Part shown: piece by piece, positions 24,613-34,117 of the stretch
Layout: every line of letters begins with the position of its first letter
Position numbering within the stretch: position 1 is the stretch's first letter
Position numbers and translations under genes: made by a program
Notes under the pieces: model-generated
What the model was told of the DNA's origin: nothing
What the model saw: the letters and a program-made list of their open reading frames with translations, nothing else
Databases searched by the model: none
Origin: Planctomycetota bacterium
GTDB lineage: Bacteria; Planctomycetota; Phycisphaerae; Sedimentisphaerales; Anaerobacaceae
Assembly (NCBI GenBank): GCA_019456145.1
Contig: VRUL01000006.1
Location: 128,423 to 192,422, forward strand
Direction: 5' to 3'
Length of the DNA: 64,000 nucleotides

Positions 24613-24798
24613 TCGGGAGTAAGTACCATAGAGTCATTCCCTCTGGCGCGGAGGTGTATGAGCAGCAAATCCAAGCCGGTACAAGACCTACAGTTGACGC
24701 TTTATGCTTGCAAAGGTAATTTATGGCGACTATAATGATATTCCCTAAATGAACATTATCTCTCCATGGTTACGAACAATAGGAGGAGGATACAAGGT

Positions 24799-27333
24799 AT
24801 GAAAGTTTCCTTTGGACTGAAGACTGTAATTCAAGCTACTGTACTTGCGGCATCGATCTTTACTGCTCATAGCGCTTTTGCCCAAGGGGGGCGTTCCGAC
24901 TATGAGCGTGCGCACAATCTTCGAAAGACCACGGCCAATAAAGTGTTCAAGCAACGCATCAATCCCACCTGGCTTTCGGGTAATACTCAGTTTTGGTATC
25001 GCAATGACCTGGCTGATGAGGTACGTGAGTTTATCTTCGTGAATGCCGAAACCGGCACACGCCAACGGGCATTTGACCACGAGCGTTTTGCCGTGGTACT
25101 TTCCAAAGCGGCCGGGGAAGAAATACAGGCCGACAAACTCCCAATCGAGAAACTGAAGTTCAGTGAGTCCGGGGCAGAGCTTCAGTTCACCAGTGACGGC
25201 AAACGGTGGAAATGTGATTTGCGAAGCTATGAAGTTCGTGAGGTTCCGAAAGACGAACGGACAAGCTCATCTCTTCGGCCACACCCTGAGCTGCATCCGA
25301 GTATTCGAGCTCGCCAAGAGACTTCGATTACGTTTATCAACGGCACAGCAGGCGATGTGGAAGTATATTGGATTGACTATGAGGGAGAGCGACGTCACTA
25401 TGCTACAATCGGCGCCGGCAAGGAACATCAGCAGCACACTTTTGTGGGGCATGTGTGGCTGGTAACGAACAAGGACGGAAAGAGACTGGCTGTATTTGTC
25501 GCTACCGAAGAATTCGGAAGTGCTGCCATAGACGCTAACAGTATTCAGGAAACTGCCGCCAAAGGAAGGCCCAGGTCAGTGAGACAACGCGGCAAGTCGC
25601 CGGACGGCGAATGGTCTGCATTTATAAAAGATTACAACCTCTATGTACGGAACATCGAAAATGGCCGGGAGAATTCGCTCAGCAGTGACGGCACCGAAGA
25701 AGAGGCATATTCGAGACGTCTATACTGGTCACCGGACTCCGAAAAATTAGCCACGCTGCGAGTCACAAAAGGCGATGACAGAAAAATCCACCTCATCGAG
25801 TCGTCACCCAAAGACCAGTTGCAGCCGAAACTCCATACATTTTCTTATGCCAAACCCGGCGACCGCATTGCTATCAGCAGGCCCCAATTGTTCAACATCG
25901 CCAGCGAGTGTCATATTCCTGTTGCGGACGAGCTTTTTTCAAATCCCTGGAGAATTTCAGAGATTCGTTGGGCGCCGGATTCCAGTAAGTTTACTTTCCT
26001 CTATAACCAGCGCGGCCACCAGGTACTCCGTCTCATAAGCGTGGATGCCAACACCGGCCAAACGCGTCACATAGTTGATGAACAAAGCAGGACGTTTATC
26101 GACTATTCATTTAAGCAGTTTAGTCATTACCTCGACGATATGAACGAAATTATCTGGATGTCTGAACGTGACGGCTGGAACCACCTTTACCTTTATGATT
26201 CGGAAACAGGCTGCGTAAAGAACCAAATTACCAAAGGTGATTGGGTTGTGCGCCGTGTGGATCGCGTCGACGAGGAGAAACGCCAAATCTGGTTTCGGGC
26301 CGGCGGTATCCGAGAAGAGCAGGACCCTTACTATGTGCATTTCTGCCGTGTGAATTTGGATGGCTCAGGTCTCGTAGTGCTGACCGAAGGGGACGGGACG
26401 CATGAAATTGAGTTTTCACCGGATCGCCGATTCTTCCTTGACCGATGGTCCCGGGTCGATAAGCCGCCTGTCACCGAGCTGCGCGATGCCAACGAAGGTA
26501 AACTCATTTGCGAATTGGAACAAGCCGACTGGACCGAGCTGCTGGAAACCGGATGGCGTCCACCGGAGCGATTCGTTGCAAAGGGCCGAGATGGCCAAAC
26601 AGACATTTACGGGATAATCATCCGTCCGAGCAATTTCGACCCGAAACGCCAATACCCTGTGATTGAGCAGATTTATGCCGGTCCGCAAGGCGCGTTTGTA
26701 CCGAAATCGTTCGGGCTGCAAACTCGCCAGCACGCTATTGCCGAGCTTGGTTTTATTGTTGTGCAGATTGATGGCATGGGTACGTCGTATCGCTCAAAGG
26801 CATTTCATGATGTTTGCTGGAAAAACCTCGGAGACTCTGGTTTTGACGACCGTATTCTATGGATGAAGGCAGCGGCAGCGAAGTATCTCTCCATGGACCT
26901 TACACGAGTCGGTATTTATGGTGGTTCGGCGGGGGGGCAAAGCTCGCTTCGTGCTCTTTTGGCCCATGGCGATTTCTATAAGGTTGCAGTTTCCGACTGC
27001 GGCTGCCACGATAACCGAATGGATAAAATATGGTGGAATGAGTTGTGGATGGGCTGGCCTATTGGGCCGCATTACGAAGAACAATCGAATGTTACGCAAG
27101 CTCACAAACTACAGGGTAAACTGCTACTAACCGTGGGGGAACTCGACAAGAACGTGGATCCCGCCTCCACCATGCAGGTCGTCGATGCACTTATCAAAGC
27201 AGATAAGGATTTTGACCTGATAATAGTGCCGGGCCGTGGTCATGGCGTGGGTGGAGGCCGCTATGCCAGCCGGCGGCGTACGGATTTCTTCGTTCGGCAC
27301 TTGCTTGGTGTAGAGCCTCGCAGCCGGCCATGA
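24799..27333 (+). CDS. S9 prolyl-oligopeptidase-family peptidase with VHL-beta-like insert
   Basis: An 844-residue exported peptidase. AGGAGG lies 9 nt before ATG 24799, which also begins the signal peptide (ending HSAFAQ); ATG 24766 has none. Residues about 165-240 resemble the beta domain of the von Hippel-Lindau protein: TSITFINGTAGDVEVYWIDY, EGERRHYATIGAG and HTFVGHVWLVTNKDG match VIFCNRSP, VWLNFDGE, YPTLPPG and YRGHLWLF in human VHL. The DPP4-type beta-propeller follows, then the alpha/beta-hydrolase domain with Ser in YGGSAGGQSS, Asp in GELDKNVDP and His in PGRGHGVGG. It probably digests peptides in the periplasm. The VHL fold may bind a substrate or partner. Confidence 0.9.
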   Translation: MKVSFGLKTVIQATVLAASIFTAHSAFAQGGRSDYERAHNLRKTTANKVFKQRINPTWLSGNTQFWYRNDLADEVREFIFVNAETGTRQRAFDHERFAVVLSKAAGEEIQADKLPIEKLKFSESGAELQFTSDGKRWKCDLRSYEVREVPKDERTSSSLRPHPELHPSIRARQETSITFINGTAGDVEVYWIDYEGERRHYATIGAGKEHQQHTFVGHVWLVTNKDGKRLAVFVATEEFGSAAIDANSIQETAAKGRPRSVRQRGKSPDGEWSAFIKDYNLYVRNIENGRENSLSSDGTEEEAYSRRLYWSPDSEKLATLRVTKGDDRKIHLIESSPKDQLQPKLHTFSYAKPGDRIAISRPQLFNIASECHIPVADELFSNPWRISEIRWAPDSSKFTFLYNQRGHQVLRLISVDANTGQTRHIVDEQSRTFIDYSFKQFSHYLDDMNEIIWMSERDGWNHLYLYDSETGCVKNQITKGDWVVRRVDRVDEEKRQIWFRAGGIREEQDPYYVHFCRVNLDGSGLVVLTEGDGTHEIEFSPDRRFFLDRWSRVDKPPVTELRDANEGKLICELEQADWTELLETGWRPPERFVAKGRDGQTDIYGIIIRPSNFDPKRQYPVIEQIYAGPQGAFVPKSFGLQTRQHAIAELGFIVVQIDGMGTSYRSKAFHDVCWKNLGDSGFDDRILWMKAAAAKYLSMDLTRVGIYGGSAGGQSSLRALLAHGDFYKVAVSDCGCHDNRMDKIWWNELWMGWPIGPHYEEQSNVTQAHKLQGKLLLTVGELDKNVDPASTMQVVDALIKADKDFDLIIVPGRGHGVGGGRYASRRRTDFFVRHLLGVEPRSRP

Positions 27334-29493: not shown

Positions 29494-30819
29494 ATGAAAA
29501 GGTCAGGACAGTTGGTGATTACAGGCAAACGAATATTAAAACAATTTGTAGTGGTGAGCGTTTTCTTGTTGGCGTCAGTGGCCCCCGCAGCTTCTCTTTT
29601 GCGAAGCAAAACGGCGGGGGGGCAGCAGTGGACGCGTTTCCGCGGGCCGAACGGACAGGGCATAAGTTATGCTGAAACGATACCCATCAAATGGACCCAA
29701 AAGGATTACAACTGGAAGGTCAAGTTGCCGGGAGGCGGTCATTCTTCGCCTGTTATCTGGGGTGACAAGGTCTTTTTGACCAGCGGGGACCAAAAGACCA
29801 GTCGCGGAATGCTTTTAGCTCTACGCGTTTCAGATGGTAAGGTCTTATGGCGAAAAGAATATGCCCTGACCAGGTATCTGATGAACAGCAGCAATAGTTA
29901 CGCTACTGCCACGCCAGCGGTGGATGGCGACCATGTATATACACTTTGGGCTACTGCTAACGAGACAATCCTGGTTGCACTGGACCACAACGGCGAGGAA
30001 GTCTGGCAGAGTACCTTTGGAGGCGTTAATTCTCAGCACGGGCCGGGCATTTCGCCCATTGTTGTCAACGATGTTGTGGTTTTTACCCATGAGCACGAAA
30101 GAATCGTCAATGATGCTCGAAGTGCCTGGATAGCAATTGACCGTAAGAGCGGCAAGAGGCGATGGAAACTTGAGCGGCAGACGAGGGGCAAAACGTCCTA
30201 CTCGACGCCATGCGTTTACTCACAGGGAACCGATGTGCCGCTGTTGGTTTTCACAAGCTTTGCCCACGGCATGACCGGTGTTGACCCGAGCAGTGGGGCG
30301 GTCGTATGGGAGGCCAAGTCGGTGTTCACCAGCCGCATAGTCAGTTCACCCGTTATTGCAGGTGAACTGTTAATCGGTACTTGCGGCGACGGTTCCAGCG
30401 GTAAGCGCCTGATTGCTGTCCAACCGGGCAGGGGGGGCAAGTCGGCCGAGCCAACAGAGGTATACAAGATTGAGAATAGATTGGTGCCGTATGTCACCAC
30501 TTCATTGGCTAAAGATGGATTGTTGTTTACGTTTCATGACAGGGGGGATATTTGTTGCCTGCGCAGCGCCACAGGTGAACAACTGTGGAGCGAAAAGCCC
30601 GCCGGTCCCTTTTATGGCTCGCCAGTGTGGGTAAACGGCAAACTGTACTGTATCACGAAAAAGGGGGAGGTTGTCGTAATCAAGGCCGATTCCACATACG
30701 AGCTGCTTGCGGTCAATCCGTTAGGTGAAGAGAGCTACGCAACTCCTGCCGTGGCTGGCGGGAAGATGTATCTGCGGACTTATTCACACCTTATTTCCAT
30801 CGGAGGCAGGAAAGAGTAG
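29494..30819 (+). CDS. PQQ-like beta-propeller secreted protein
   Basis: A 441-residue protein. I start at ATG 29494 (AAAGGAT upstream), which opens the signal peptide ILKQFVVVSVFLLASVAPA. Then WTRFRGPNGQGIS, a motif that begins many planctomycete PQQ-repeat proteins, and seven or eight blades follow (VIWGDKVFLTSGD, LLALRVSDGKVLWRKEY, LVALDHNGEEVWQ, WIAIDRKSGKRRWK, AGELLIGTCGDGS). Blades contain the A-x-D-x-x-TGK-x-x-W pattern. Likely a periplasmic binding scaffold rather than a dehydrogenase. A 15-bp motif shared with 24536 lies in the first mature codons. Its 3' end overlaps the convergent PEP-CTERM gene by 29 bp. Confidence 0.85.
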   Translation: MKRSGQLVITGKRILKQFVVVSVFLLASVAPAASLLRSKTAGGQQWTRFRGPNGQGISYAETIPIKWTQKDYNWKVKLPGGGHSSPVIWGDKVFLTSGDQKTSRGMLLALRVSDGKVLWRKEYALTRYLMNSSNSYATATPAVDGDHVYTLWATANETILVALDHNGEEVWQSTFGGVNSQHGPGISPIVVNDVVVFTHEHERIVNDARSAWIAIDRKSGKRRWKLERQTRGKTSYSTPCVYSQGTDVPLLVFTSFAHGMTGVDPSSGAVVWEAKSVFTSRIVSSPVIAGELLIGTCGDGSSGKRLIAVQPGRGGKSAEPTEVYKIENRLVPYVTTSLAKDGLLFTFHDRGDICCLRSATGEQLWSEKPAGPFYGSPVWVNGKLYCITKKGEVVVIKADSTYELLAVNPLGEESYATPAVAGGKMYLRTYSHLISIGGRKE

Positions 30820-31435
30820 GGGGGCAAAATCTTCGTCTCTTCAGCAGTAGCACACCAAGGCCAAGCAATAATATCGTTGCCGGTTCGGGTATTATCTCTA
30901 TAGATACTGACACAGGAACTCTTTCACCACTAATAAGGTCTAATTCTCCAATTACATCATATATGCCTGGATTTACAGGAAAATCATCATCTGTCGGCAG
31001 TGTCCCATTATCGTTCATCATATTCCAGATGGTCTGGCCTTCTTTAGATTCATACGGGCCTAAATGAAAGGCTGTAAAACCAAGCACAACGGACAGATAT
31101 GGGTAGGACCAAATTTGGATACCATCTTGCATAATCCTAAATTCGTAATAAGCAAGTGAGTCAGATACAACCGAACCCAGAGTTACATCCTCGTCCCCGA
31201 GATTAGTCACCCTATATAGCATCTCAACATTCTCACCTAAGTCGTAAACAGATTTATTCGTCTGCATATAATACTCAATGTTGTCGACGACTATAAACGA
31301 GTTTGAATCAACGAGAGTCGCTTTTGCACTTACTGTCATGAATAATATAGATATGCAGATACAAGCCAATTTCTTCAGAATTATTTTTATTCGGCCATTC
31401 GTTTTACTGCCCTCATTTCTGACCAATGCGGCCAT
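30791..31435 (-). CDS. PEP-CTERM sorting-domain protein with BsuPI-like domain
   Basis: A 214-residue exported protein. The signal segment is IKIILKKLACICISILFMTV ending at SAKA. The middle (YRVTNLGDEDVTLGSVVSDS) resembles the BsuPI beta-sandwich of intracellular protease inhibitors. The C-terminus IPEPATILLLGLGVLLLKRR is a complete PEP-CTERM signal: PEP motif, membrane helix, Arg cluster, recognised by exosortase for sorting linked to exopolysaccharide. Unusually 12 residues (CPPTLSCLRW within them) continue after the Arg cluster, exactly where the gene overlaps the convergent PQQ gene, so the normal stop was probably lost. No ribosome site precedes the ATG. Confidence 0.8.
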   Translation of the reverse strand: MAALVRNEGSKTNGRIKIILKKLACICISILFMTVSAKATLVDSNSFIVVDNIEYYMQTNKSVYDLGENVEMLYRVTNLGDEDVTLGSVVSDSLAYYEFRIMQDGIQIWSYPYLSVVLGFTAFHLGPYESKEGQTIWNMMNDNGTLPTDDDFPVNPGIYDVIGELDLISGERVPVSVSIEIIPEPATILLLGLGVLLLKRRRFCPPTLSCLRWK

Positions 31436-31722: not shown

Positions 31723-32337
31723 ATGGAAGCTCTAACGGAAAAACAGCAAAAGGTTCTCAGTTTTATTGAGAAAAGGTTGGGAGAGAATAATCCGCCGAGC
31801 CAGCGGGAAATCGCCCGGCACTTCGGCCTTGCGCGGAACGCCATTCGTCAGTTCGCAAGCTATCTTAAGAAGAAAGGCTATCTGATAGATTTGGGCGGCC
31901 ATCGGGGACTGAGGCTGTCTGAAGAGTACCTGTACAGAAAAAAGGAGACGGAGGGTATCCCTATTGTGGGTAGAGTGGCGGCGGGGGAGCCGATATTGGC
32001 GGAAGAAAATATCGAGGGGTATGTAGACCCGGGGGAATTGTTCGGCCAATCGAAAGACAGTTTTATTCTGAGAGTTAGCGGCGATAGTATGGTTGACGAA
32101 GGTATTATGGATGGTGATTTCGTAGTGGTTGAGCCGGCTTCGACGATTGAGAACGGGAAAATTGGGGTGGTGCTGCTGGATGATGAAGCGACCGTTAAGA
32201 GAATATATATCCAGCGTAACCGGATAGCCTTAAAATCGGCCAACCGCGCGGCGGGTTACAGGACCAGATATATTAAGGGAACCGACAGAAGTATTCGTAT
32301 AATCGGCAAGGTGACTGGATGTCTTAGAACTATATAA
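31723..32337 (+). CDS. lexA: LexA repressor
   Basis: A 204-residue SOS repressor that cleaves itself when RecA filaments form. N-terminal winged helix: LTEKQQKVLSFIEKRLG, SQREIARHFGLARNAIRQF as the recognition helix, GYLIDLGGHRGL. The cleavage site is Ala-Gly in GRVAAGEPILAEE; the catalytic Ser is in SGDSMVDEGI and Lys in EATVKRI. It has an unusual recognition helix compared with E. coli LexA, which fits the unusual palindrome upstream. It heads an operon with a small ORF, umuD and umuC, so it probably represses itself and the mutagenic polymerase together. Confidence 0.93.
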   Translation: MEALTEKQQKVLSFIEKRLGENNPPSQREIARHFGLARNAIRQFASYLKKKGYLIDLGGHRGLRLSEEYLYRKKETEGIPIVGRVAAGEPILAEENIEGYVDPGELFGQSKDSFILRVSGDSMVDEGIMDGDFVVVEPASTIENGKIGVVLLDDEATVKRIYIQRNRIALKSANRAAGYRTRYIKGTDRSIRIIGKVTGCLRTI

Positions 32338-32352
32338 GAGGGAAGAGGTACT

Positions 32353-32436
32353 TTGCCGGACCTGGACAGGAATAACGGGCTGGTCGTATTCGAATGCGGC
32401 AAAGATTACTTTGAGCCAATAATGAGTGCAGAATGA
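32353..32436 (+). CDS. putative 27-codon ORF between lexA and umuD
   Basis: TTG 32353 opens 27 codons (LPDLDRNNGLVVFECGKDYF, then EPIMSAE) ending in TGA at 32434-32436. GGAAGAGG precedes the TTG by about 4 nt. The stop overlaps the umuD start as ATGA, the same junction used between umuD and umuC, so translation would be coupled. The frame is also the continuation of lexA past its TAA. It may be a real small protein, a coupling leader or chance; umuD has no ribosome site of its own, which favours coupling. Confidence 0.35.
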   Translation: MPDLDRNNGLVVFECGKDYFEPIMSAE

Positions 32437-32864
32437 ATACTAAAGTCCAGACAGTTTATATGCCGGATCTATCTACAAAGTATCGGCAATCCCTGTTTGA
32501 TGCGAGGGTGCCGGCAGGGTTTCCTTCTCCTGCCGCCGATTACGAAGAGGACAAGCTCGACTTGAATGAGCACCTGATTAAGCATCCGGCAGCTACATTT
32601 TTTGTCAGAGCAATCGGCGATTCGATGATTGGAGCGGGCATTCACTGCGGAGACCTTTTAGTTGTTGACCGCAGCCTTGAAGCCAGAGACAAGAGCGTAG
32701 TAATAGCGGTTGTAGACGGCGAACTGACTGTCAAAAGAATCAGAATCAAGAAAAAAAAGATAACTTTAGAGCCTGAAAACAAAAGCTACTGTGCTCAGGA
32801 GATCAATGAGAATATGGAATTTGAGGTATGGGGGGTAGTGACCAGCGTTATACATAAACTATGA
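32433..32864 (+). CDS. umuD: UmuD-like SOS mutagenesis protein
   Basis: A 143-residue S24-type self-cleaving protein and accessory subunit of DNA polymerase V. The cleavage site is [15 protein letters not shown] (Ala-Gly, as in GFPSPAADY of E. coli UmuD); the Ser is in [11 protein letters not shown] and Lys in LTVKRIRIK. After RecA-stimulated cleavage the short form would join UmuC. Its start overlaps the preceding small ORF by ATGA and its stop overlaps umuC by four bases, so the three are translated together. Expected LexA control from the promoter at 31668. Confidence 0.93.
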
Positions 32865-34117
32865 AAGAGATATTTGCGCTTGTTGATTGTAATAACTTCT
32901 ATGCCTCCTGTGAGCGTGCATTTAATCCGAGATTGGAAGGCAGGCCGATAGTTGTGTTATCAAACAACGACGGCTGTGTTGTGGCCCGCTCCAATGAGGC
33001 AAAGGCACTGGGTATCGGTATGGGGGTTCCGGCTTTTGAGGCCGAAAAGGTCATGGAGGAAAATAACGTTGAGGTCTTTTCTTCAAACTACGCCCTTTAT
33101 GCGGACATGTCCAGCCGGGTGATGAAAACACTGTCGAGTTTTACTCCTGATATGGAAGTCTACTCGATTGATGAAGCCTTCTTAAACCTTGCCGGTTTTA
33201 ACTGCTCTTTGGCCGATTACGGAGGAAAGATTTGCCGAACCGTCAAGAAGTGGACGGGCATTCCTGTAACAGTTGGTATAGGGCAAACAAAAACGCTGTC
33301 AAAAATAGCCAACAGGATTGCCAAAAAATCGGGCAAAGCAGATGGAGTGCAGGACTTGACCGATGCTGCTTTTCTGAACGAGATTCTTGCCAAAACCGCG
33401 GTAGAAAAAATCTGGACGGTAGGAATCAAAACGACTATAAAGCTAAAAAGGGCGGGGATTGAAACTGCGCTGGACTTACAAAAAGCGGACATAAACTGGA
33501 TTAGACAAAAGTTTGGTGTTGTGGGGGTAAGAACGGTTTATGAGCTAAGGGGTATTAGCTGTTATCCTTTAGAGCAAAATCCGCCTGTTAAAAAATCGAT
33601 TGCCGTATCGCGGTCTTTTGGCAAGCCGGTCGAATCCATCGAAGGGCTAAAAGAGTCGGTTGCCAGCTATTGCTCAAGGGCCGGTGAGAAACTGAGGCAG
33701 CAGGGATTAGCAGCCGGCTTGATGACGGTATACGTTACAACCAGCCGATTTATAAAAAACAGGTATTTCAATTCTCACGCCATAGAGTTTCCCACTGCTA
33801 CCAGTGACACAATGGAGCTTATTCGGGGGGCACTATTCTGCATAGGCAAATTATATCGCAGTGGCTTTGCGTTCAAAAAAGCCGGGATTGTGTTAAATGG
33901 TCTTGTGTCTGAAAAACGGATTCAGGGGAATTTGTTTGATAGTGTTGACAGAGAAAAATCTCAGCGACTTATGCAGGCGGTAGATGCCGTCAATACCAGA
34001 TTAAACTGCCCGCTTCGATGGGCGGCAGAAGGATTAAACCAACCCTGGAAGGTAAAGTTCAACAAGCGCTCTTATCGATATACGACCCGATGGGATGAGC
34101 TGCCGCCAGTTGCATAG
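32861..34117 (+). CDS. umuC: Y-family DNA polymerase V catalytic subunit
   Basis: A 418-residue translesion polymerase. Palm motif: [19 protein letters not shown] with the first Asp; [14 protein letters not shown]; the two acidic residues in [11 protein letters not shown]. Then the helix-hairpin-helix part ([14 protein letters not shown]) and the little-finger domain with the UmuC-type C-terminus ([20 protein letters not shown], ending [12 protein letters not shown]). ATGA overlap with umuD. Full length, about the same as E. coli UmuC. It would copy past DNA lesions with reduced fidelity during the SOS response. Confidence 0.95.

Follow-up and report, generated by a model that had tools for sequence, protein, structure and literature searches.

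The window, the whole 64,000-nucleotide stretch of planctomycete DNA analysed here, contains a gene for an exported serine peptidase of the S9B (DPP IV-like) type that carries a complete VHL beta domain (residues ~166–251) as a discrete insertion between blades 2 and 3 of its propeller. VHL is the hydroxyproline reader of animal oxygen sensing, and the residues equivalent to its hydroxyproline pocket are among the most conserved of the bacterial domain. The likeliest role of the domain is that of a substrate-capture module with which the exported peptidase would hold a (hydroxy)proline-bearing foreign extracellular protein, a reading whose chances we judge to be evenly balanced. The gene is laid out as follows.

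24799..27333 (+): gene (844 aa plus stop) for an exported S9B (DPP IV-like) serine peptidase into which a VHL beta domain is inserted
24799..24882 (+): Sec-type signal peptide, residues 1–28, likely cleaved between AFA and Q (sequence reading; model helix 4–26)
24937..25245 (+): propeller blades 1 and 2, residues ~47–149 (DSSP of the AF2 model; alignment with VHL-less homologues)
25294..25551 (+): VHL beta domain (insertion), residues ~166–251 (Pfam, phmmer, model, homologue alignment)
25300–25470 (+): Pfam-matched VHL core, residues 168–224 (PF01847 profile)
25369..25458 (+): stretch equivalent to the hydroxyproline pocket, W191, Y201, H213, T214, H218 and W220 (pocket definition from PMC9528729)
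25588..26538 (+): propeller blades 3–8, residues ~264–580 (model; Pfam DPPIV_N, matching residues 246–557, E 7.6e-53)
26722..27303 (+): Peptidase_S9 alpha/beta-hydrolase domain, residues 642–835 (Pfam, E 7e-46)
26926..26928 (+): catalytic Ser710 in GGSAGG (invariant in 38 homologues; aligns with PmDAP IV Ser613)
27145..27147 (+): catalytic Asp783 (invariant in 38 homologues; aligns with PmDAP IV Asp689)
27241..27243 (+): catalytic His815 (invariant in 38 homologues; aligns with PmDAP IV His721)

An alternative in-frame ATG at 24766, 11 codons upstream, is the less likely start because the signal peptide begins at 24799. The full-length AF2 model has a pLDDT of 87.7 and a pTM of 0.81; an NCBIfam profile search of the 844-aa protein gave no model close to its cut-off. 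Elsewhere in the window, a LexA-like repressor, a UmuD-like S24 protein and a UmuC-like polymerase with DUF4113 lie consecutively at 31723–34117 (+) and form an SOS mutagenesis cassette, and 30794–31435 (−) encodes a small exported protein that bears a PEP-CTERM sorting motif.

The first-pass annotation had proposed a VHL-beta-like domain within a bacterial S9 peptidase, and Pfam, phmmer and a template-free model bear this out. PF01847 matches residues 168–224 with E 7e-8 and 32.8 bits (curated cut-off 21), and the FxNGT, WxxYEGE, YxTIGAG and GHVWL positions that had been singled out are all found in the protein. The match is independent of the profile, since the 82-aa region alone, run with phmmer against the PDB, retrieves human pVHL in first place (E 1e-6); all hits below E 0.1 are pVHL sequences, 24 in number and between E 1e-6 and 1e-5. 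A model of the domain built by AF2 without templates (pLDDT 89) superimposes on residues 63–156 of pVHL [6gmn_C; 1.5 Å over 84 residues, Z 13.1]; a structure search made with this model lists 50 entries, every one of them VHL. The superposition indicates that the predicted domain comprises the entire beta sandwich, beyond the part matched by Pfam.

In the full AF2 model, the strands of blade 1 (64–90) and blade 2 (118–149) are followed by those of the VHL domain (174–244), with blade 3 starting at 272; low-confidence linkers (152–156 and 253–263) border the domain on either side. That it is an insertion is confirmed by planctomycete S9 homologues without it (G064, G216, G024, G137, G194, G186 and G220; the closest 60–66% identical), in which, at identities of up to 66% over propeller and peptidase, only a short Arg/Ser/Pro-rich linker takes its place. 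Most of them share a CGCHDNRMDK motif with the window protein. The domain had been described as lying ahead of the peptidase; the two do belong to one protein, but the domain sits within the propeller, between blades 2 and 3. A position in place of the blade 1–2 substrate-contact loop of PmDAP IV (Arg106 loop; PMC5807507) is excluded by the strand map and the alignment.

Propeller and hydrolase together match bacterial DAP IV best [2ecf, Z 30.3, 9.1 Å over 635 residues, 24% identity], and the Ser710-Asp783-His815 triad is intact. In DPP IV a double-Glu helix anchors the N-terminus of the peptide (PMC5807507). In our alignments this motif is absent, and its segment shortened, throughout the subfamily of the window peptidase, VHL-less homologues included, whereas a paralogue in the same genome (G000:C9) has it as DWVYEEE. 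W642, Y645, D646 and Y649 of PmDAP IV correspond to N739, D742, K743 and W746 in a HMMER alignment that may be shifted here, so that the usual Trp/Tyr/Tyr of the S1 proline pocket is replaced by N739, D742 and W746. The missing helix and the altered S1 residues argue for an enzyme that has the DPP IV fold and is probably not a dipeptidyl aminopeptidase. The label 'proline-directed', for which the family name was the sole basis, is therefore not established.

The hydroxyproline site of pVHL consists of Trp88, Tyr98, His110, Ser111, His115 and Trp117, of which Ser111 and His115 bond the hydroxyl (PMC9528729). The equivalents in the window protein are W191, Y201, H213, T214, H218 and W220, respectively. 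Across 42 S9-linked domains (41 surveyed plus the window copy), Asn78, Tyr98 and Trp117 (pVHL numbering) occur without exception, and 41 copies have Trp88, 41 have Thr at 111 and 41 have His115. Of the 64 columns that can be compared with human, these six rank highest in conservation, in a domain with a mean column identity of 35%. For all five pocket residues to fall among the top six columns the chance is ~8e-7 if columns are taken as exchangeable, which they are not fully, aromatic core residues being conserved for folding; Trp117 is one of the aromatic residues clustered in the pVHL core (PMC3688787). The first-pass annotation had named two refuting outcomes, a profile search showing no relation and pocket residues that are not conserved, and neither came about; its interpretation is partly supported. 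Taken with the significant profile match, the pocket conservation strengthens the earlier idea of peptide or hydroxyproline binding, and it suggests that bacteria may use the pocket to catch protein substrates.

Other planctomycete proteins also carry VHL domains: sulfatases, SASA acetylesterases, LRR proteins, a GH127 protein, a kinase with MORN repeats, a protein with F5/8-type C and NPCBM domains and weakly metallopeptidase-like (ATLF/M90) proteins, most of whose ATLF/M90 matches lie below the Pfam cut-offs. With some carriers classed by similarity to scanned representatives, His115 is retained in 41 of 42 S9-linked and 10 of 10 ATLF/M90-like-linked copies, against 3 of 20 on sulfatases, esterases, LRR, GH127 and similar proteins (SASA 0/4, sulfatase 2/10, an unassigned set including LRR and GH127 1/6). 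Fisher's test gives 1e-12 for this contrast, a guide value only because kin sequences are counted as independent. Position 115 is Ala in all four SASA and eight of the ten sulfatase copies, while in the same 20 domains Trp88 is always, and Tyr98, Thr111 and Trp117 are mostly, retained. As His115 is lost while the aromatics persist, it is dispensable for the fold, and its retention tracks the peptidase context. His115 is also present in five more copies that belong to none of these classes (kinase, PPC, F5/8, short protein); the contrast therefore lies between domain lineages and is no absolute rule.

Several of these carriers are of interest in themselves. The VHL domain stands at the extreme C-terminus of SASA esterases, a GH127 arabinofuranosidase-like protein and LRR proteins [L068:3518-4432 (−), L077, L086, L092, L073]. 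GH127 enzymes are known in the breakdown of hydroxyproline-linked arabinosides. These SASA, GH127 and LRR carriers come from one planctomycete lineage (family f71) and from G064, often in tandem gene clusters, and have lost His115; their VHL domain looks less like a reader than like a shared C-terminal module for sorting or anchoring. In sulfatases with a C-terminal copy (L098, L103, L089, L091, L106) the pocket histidine is mostly Ala, within a TRPGAVW motif. The ATLF/M90-like family [~400–600 aa; L047:2773-4017, L055, L066, L069, L076] keeps His115 in every VHL copy and is a second, independent peptidase-like partner of the domain. In a Ser/Thr kinase [L097:3433-5079 (−)] that combines MORN repeats with a VHL domain at the C-terminus, all pocket residues are kept, with Ser at 111 as in human.

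A VHL domain occurs in 62 of 392 sampled planctomycete genomes (E 0.01), and S9 proteins account for 41 of the 76 extracted domains, nearly all with the domain at the identical position (in L082 it is C-terminal). In a tree of the peptidase core the VHL-bearing members are scattered over the S9 subfamily, requiring at least five gains or losses, only two of which are forced by well-supported branches. Distances for the VHL domain are correlated with those for the peptidase core (Mantel r 0.62, 0/5000 permutations), as expected if both descended together. One VHL-S9 homologue [L043:3626-7093 (+)] has an additional insertion of ~300 residues within the later propeller. This survey covers a sample of Planctomycetota. 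In a Chloroflexi MAG (L033), a 731-aa protein that lacks the S9 motif carries a VHL-like domain close to its C-terminus, and three plasmids give partial VHL-like matches. Three candidates from the genome scan (L034–L036) were rejected as pattern coincidences.

In the capture mechanism that we propose, Trp191, Tyr201, Thr214, His218 and Trp220 would grip a (hydroxy)proline or similar ring-shaped element of a foreign extracellular protein, for example a hydroxyproline-rich glycoprotein, and the captured chain would be presented to the Ser710-Asp783-His815 active site. VHL capture would substitute for the N-terminus anchoring of DPP IV that the subfamily has lost. In DPP IV, substrate is thought to come in through the side opening that separates propeller from hydrolase, and the hydrolase has its fewest contacts with blades 1–3 (PMC5807507); by analogy, a domain inserted between blades 2 and 3 may lie near that opening. 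The mechanism draws support from VHL homology and fold, the conserved pocket, the retention of His115 alongside peptidases, the intact triad, the signal peptide, the loss of the double-Glu helix relative to the paralogue and the co-divergence of VHL domain and peptidase. It is weakened by the loss of two HIF backbone contacts (Asn67 and Arg69), the Ser111 to Thr exchange, the changed S1 residues, the absence of PF13640 and PF05544 from the window's genome and the existence of several close homologues without the domain. The low-confidence linkers on both flanks and the possibility that the pocket aromatics are partly structural (W117 cluster, PMC3688787) weigh in the same direction.

The aromatic box with its Thr and His could instead hold a sugar ring, which would make the domain a carbohydrate-binding module that brings the peptidase to glycosylated substrates. 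The glycan contexts of VHL in the same phylum (sulfatases, SASA acetylesterases, GH127, the protein with F5/8-type C and NPCBM domains) speak for this, but His115 is lost from most copies linked to glycan enzymes and kept in those linked to peptidases, and the established ligands of VHL are hydroxyproline peptides and their mimics (PMC9528729); we regard a sugar ligand as unlikely. A purely structural or protein-protein role (dimer contact, lid or partner docking), with no small ligand and a pocket kept for folding, seems improbable to a similar degree. It would account for the membership of Trp117 in the aromatic core (PMC3688787) and for the persistence of W88, Y98, T111 and W117 in domains without His115, and insertions in the DPP IV propeller do act as dimer contacts (PMC5807507). 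It fits poorly with a His115 that the fold does not need, to judge from the Ala of SASA and sulfatase copies, yet that nearly every S9 copy has, and with the low conservation of the domain in general.

If hydroxyproline is bound, it could also be read on self targets; in this case a prolyl hydroxylase of the bacterium itself would modify its secreted proteins. PF13640, the prolyl hydroxylase-like family, is commoner in VHL-S9 genomes (14/42 against 49/350, Fisher p 0.003, uncorrected for lineage and genome size), but two thirds of these genomes are without it, and at E 0.01 the window's genome (94.7% complete) gave no hit, PF13640 being the sole 2-oxoglutarate oxygenase family searched. A ligand made by its own prolyl hydroxylase was rejected for this genome on that ground; endogenous hydroxylated targets are therefore unlikely there, and we give self-reading very little weight. 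The proline racemase family PF05544 is likewise missing from the window's genome; its enrichment in VHL-S9 genomes (20/42 against 56/350, p 9e-6, lineage uncontrolled) was set aside as support from hydroxyproline catabolism, since VHL-less members of the S9 subfamily have PF05544 too. Hydroxyproline, if it is the ligand at all, is more likely foreign (plant, algal or animal matrix protein) than self.

A more specific proposal, which we put forward tentatively and consider somewhat less probable than not, is that Planctomycetota read hydroxyproline of foreign extracellular proteins through the VHL pocket and feed these proteins to the peptidase. If true, VHL-fold hydroxyproline recognition would not be confined to HIF signalling, and in these bacteria it would be tied directly to proteolysis instead of ubiquitination. 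With a secreted peptidase attached and the pocket as the best-conserved part of its VHL domain, this bacterial family offers a ready test for hydroxyproline reading in bacteria; it may also yield a protease or an affinity reagent, specific for hydroxyproline, for use on collagen and on plant or algal cell-wall glycoproteins.

Work on the history of VHL places it among the components of eukaryotes, chiefly of animals (PMC9618697, PMC5800844). Bacterial VHL domains are already known, being in Pfam and with one described in PMC9002001, the Litorilituus sediminis protein EMK97_00595, annotated there with a VHL beta domain; for a VHL-peptidase fusion or its pocket we found no paper in the open-access literature. 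The paper on EMK97_00595 mentions no peptidase, we saw no comparable pocket analysis in it, and its tumour-suppressor claim is unsupported. With the bacterial S9B enzymes PmDAP IV (5yp1-4) and SmDAP IV (2ecf) the window protein has the eight-bladed propeller, the hydrolase and the Ser-Asp-His triad in common; it differs from them in having the VHL insertion and in lacking the double-Glu helix. With human and animal pVHL it shares the full seven-stranded beta sandwich (residues 63–156) and identical Asn78, Trp88, Tyr98, His110, His115 and Trp117, with Thr for Ser111 and Gln for Ile109, and Asn67 and Arg69 are not retained across the bacterial family. The elongin C-binding alpha domain, through which pVHL serves as an E3 ligase receptor, is absent, a linker and propeller blade 3 following in its place, and the bacterial VHL protein, unlike pVHL, is exported.
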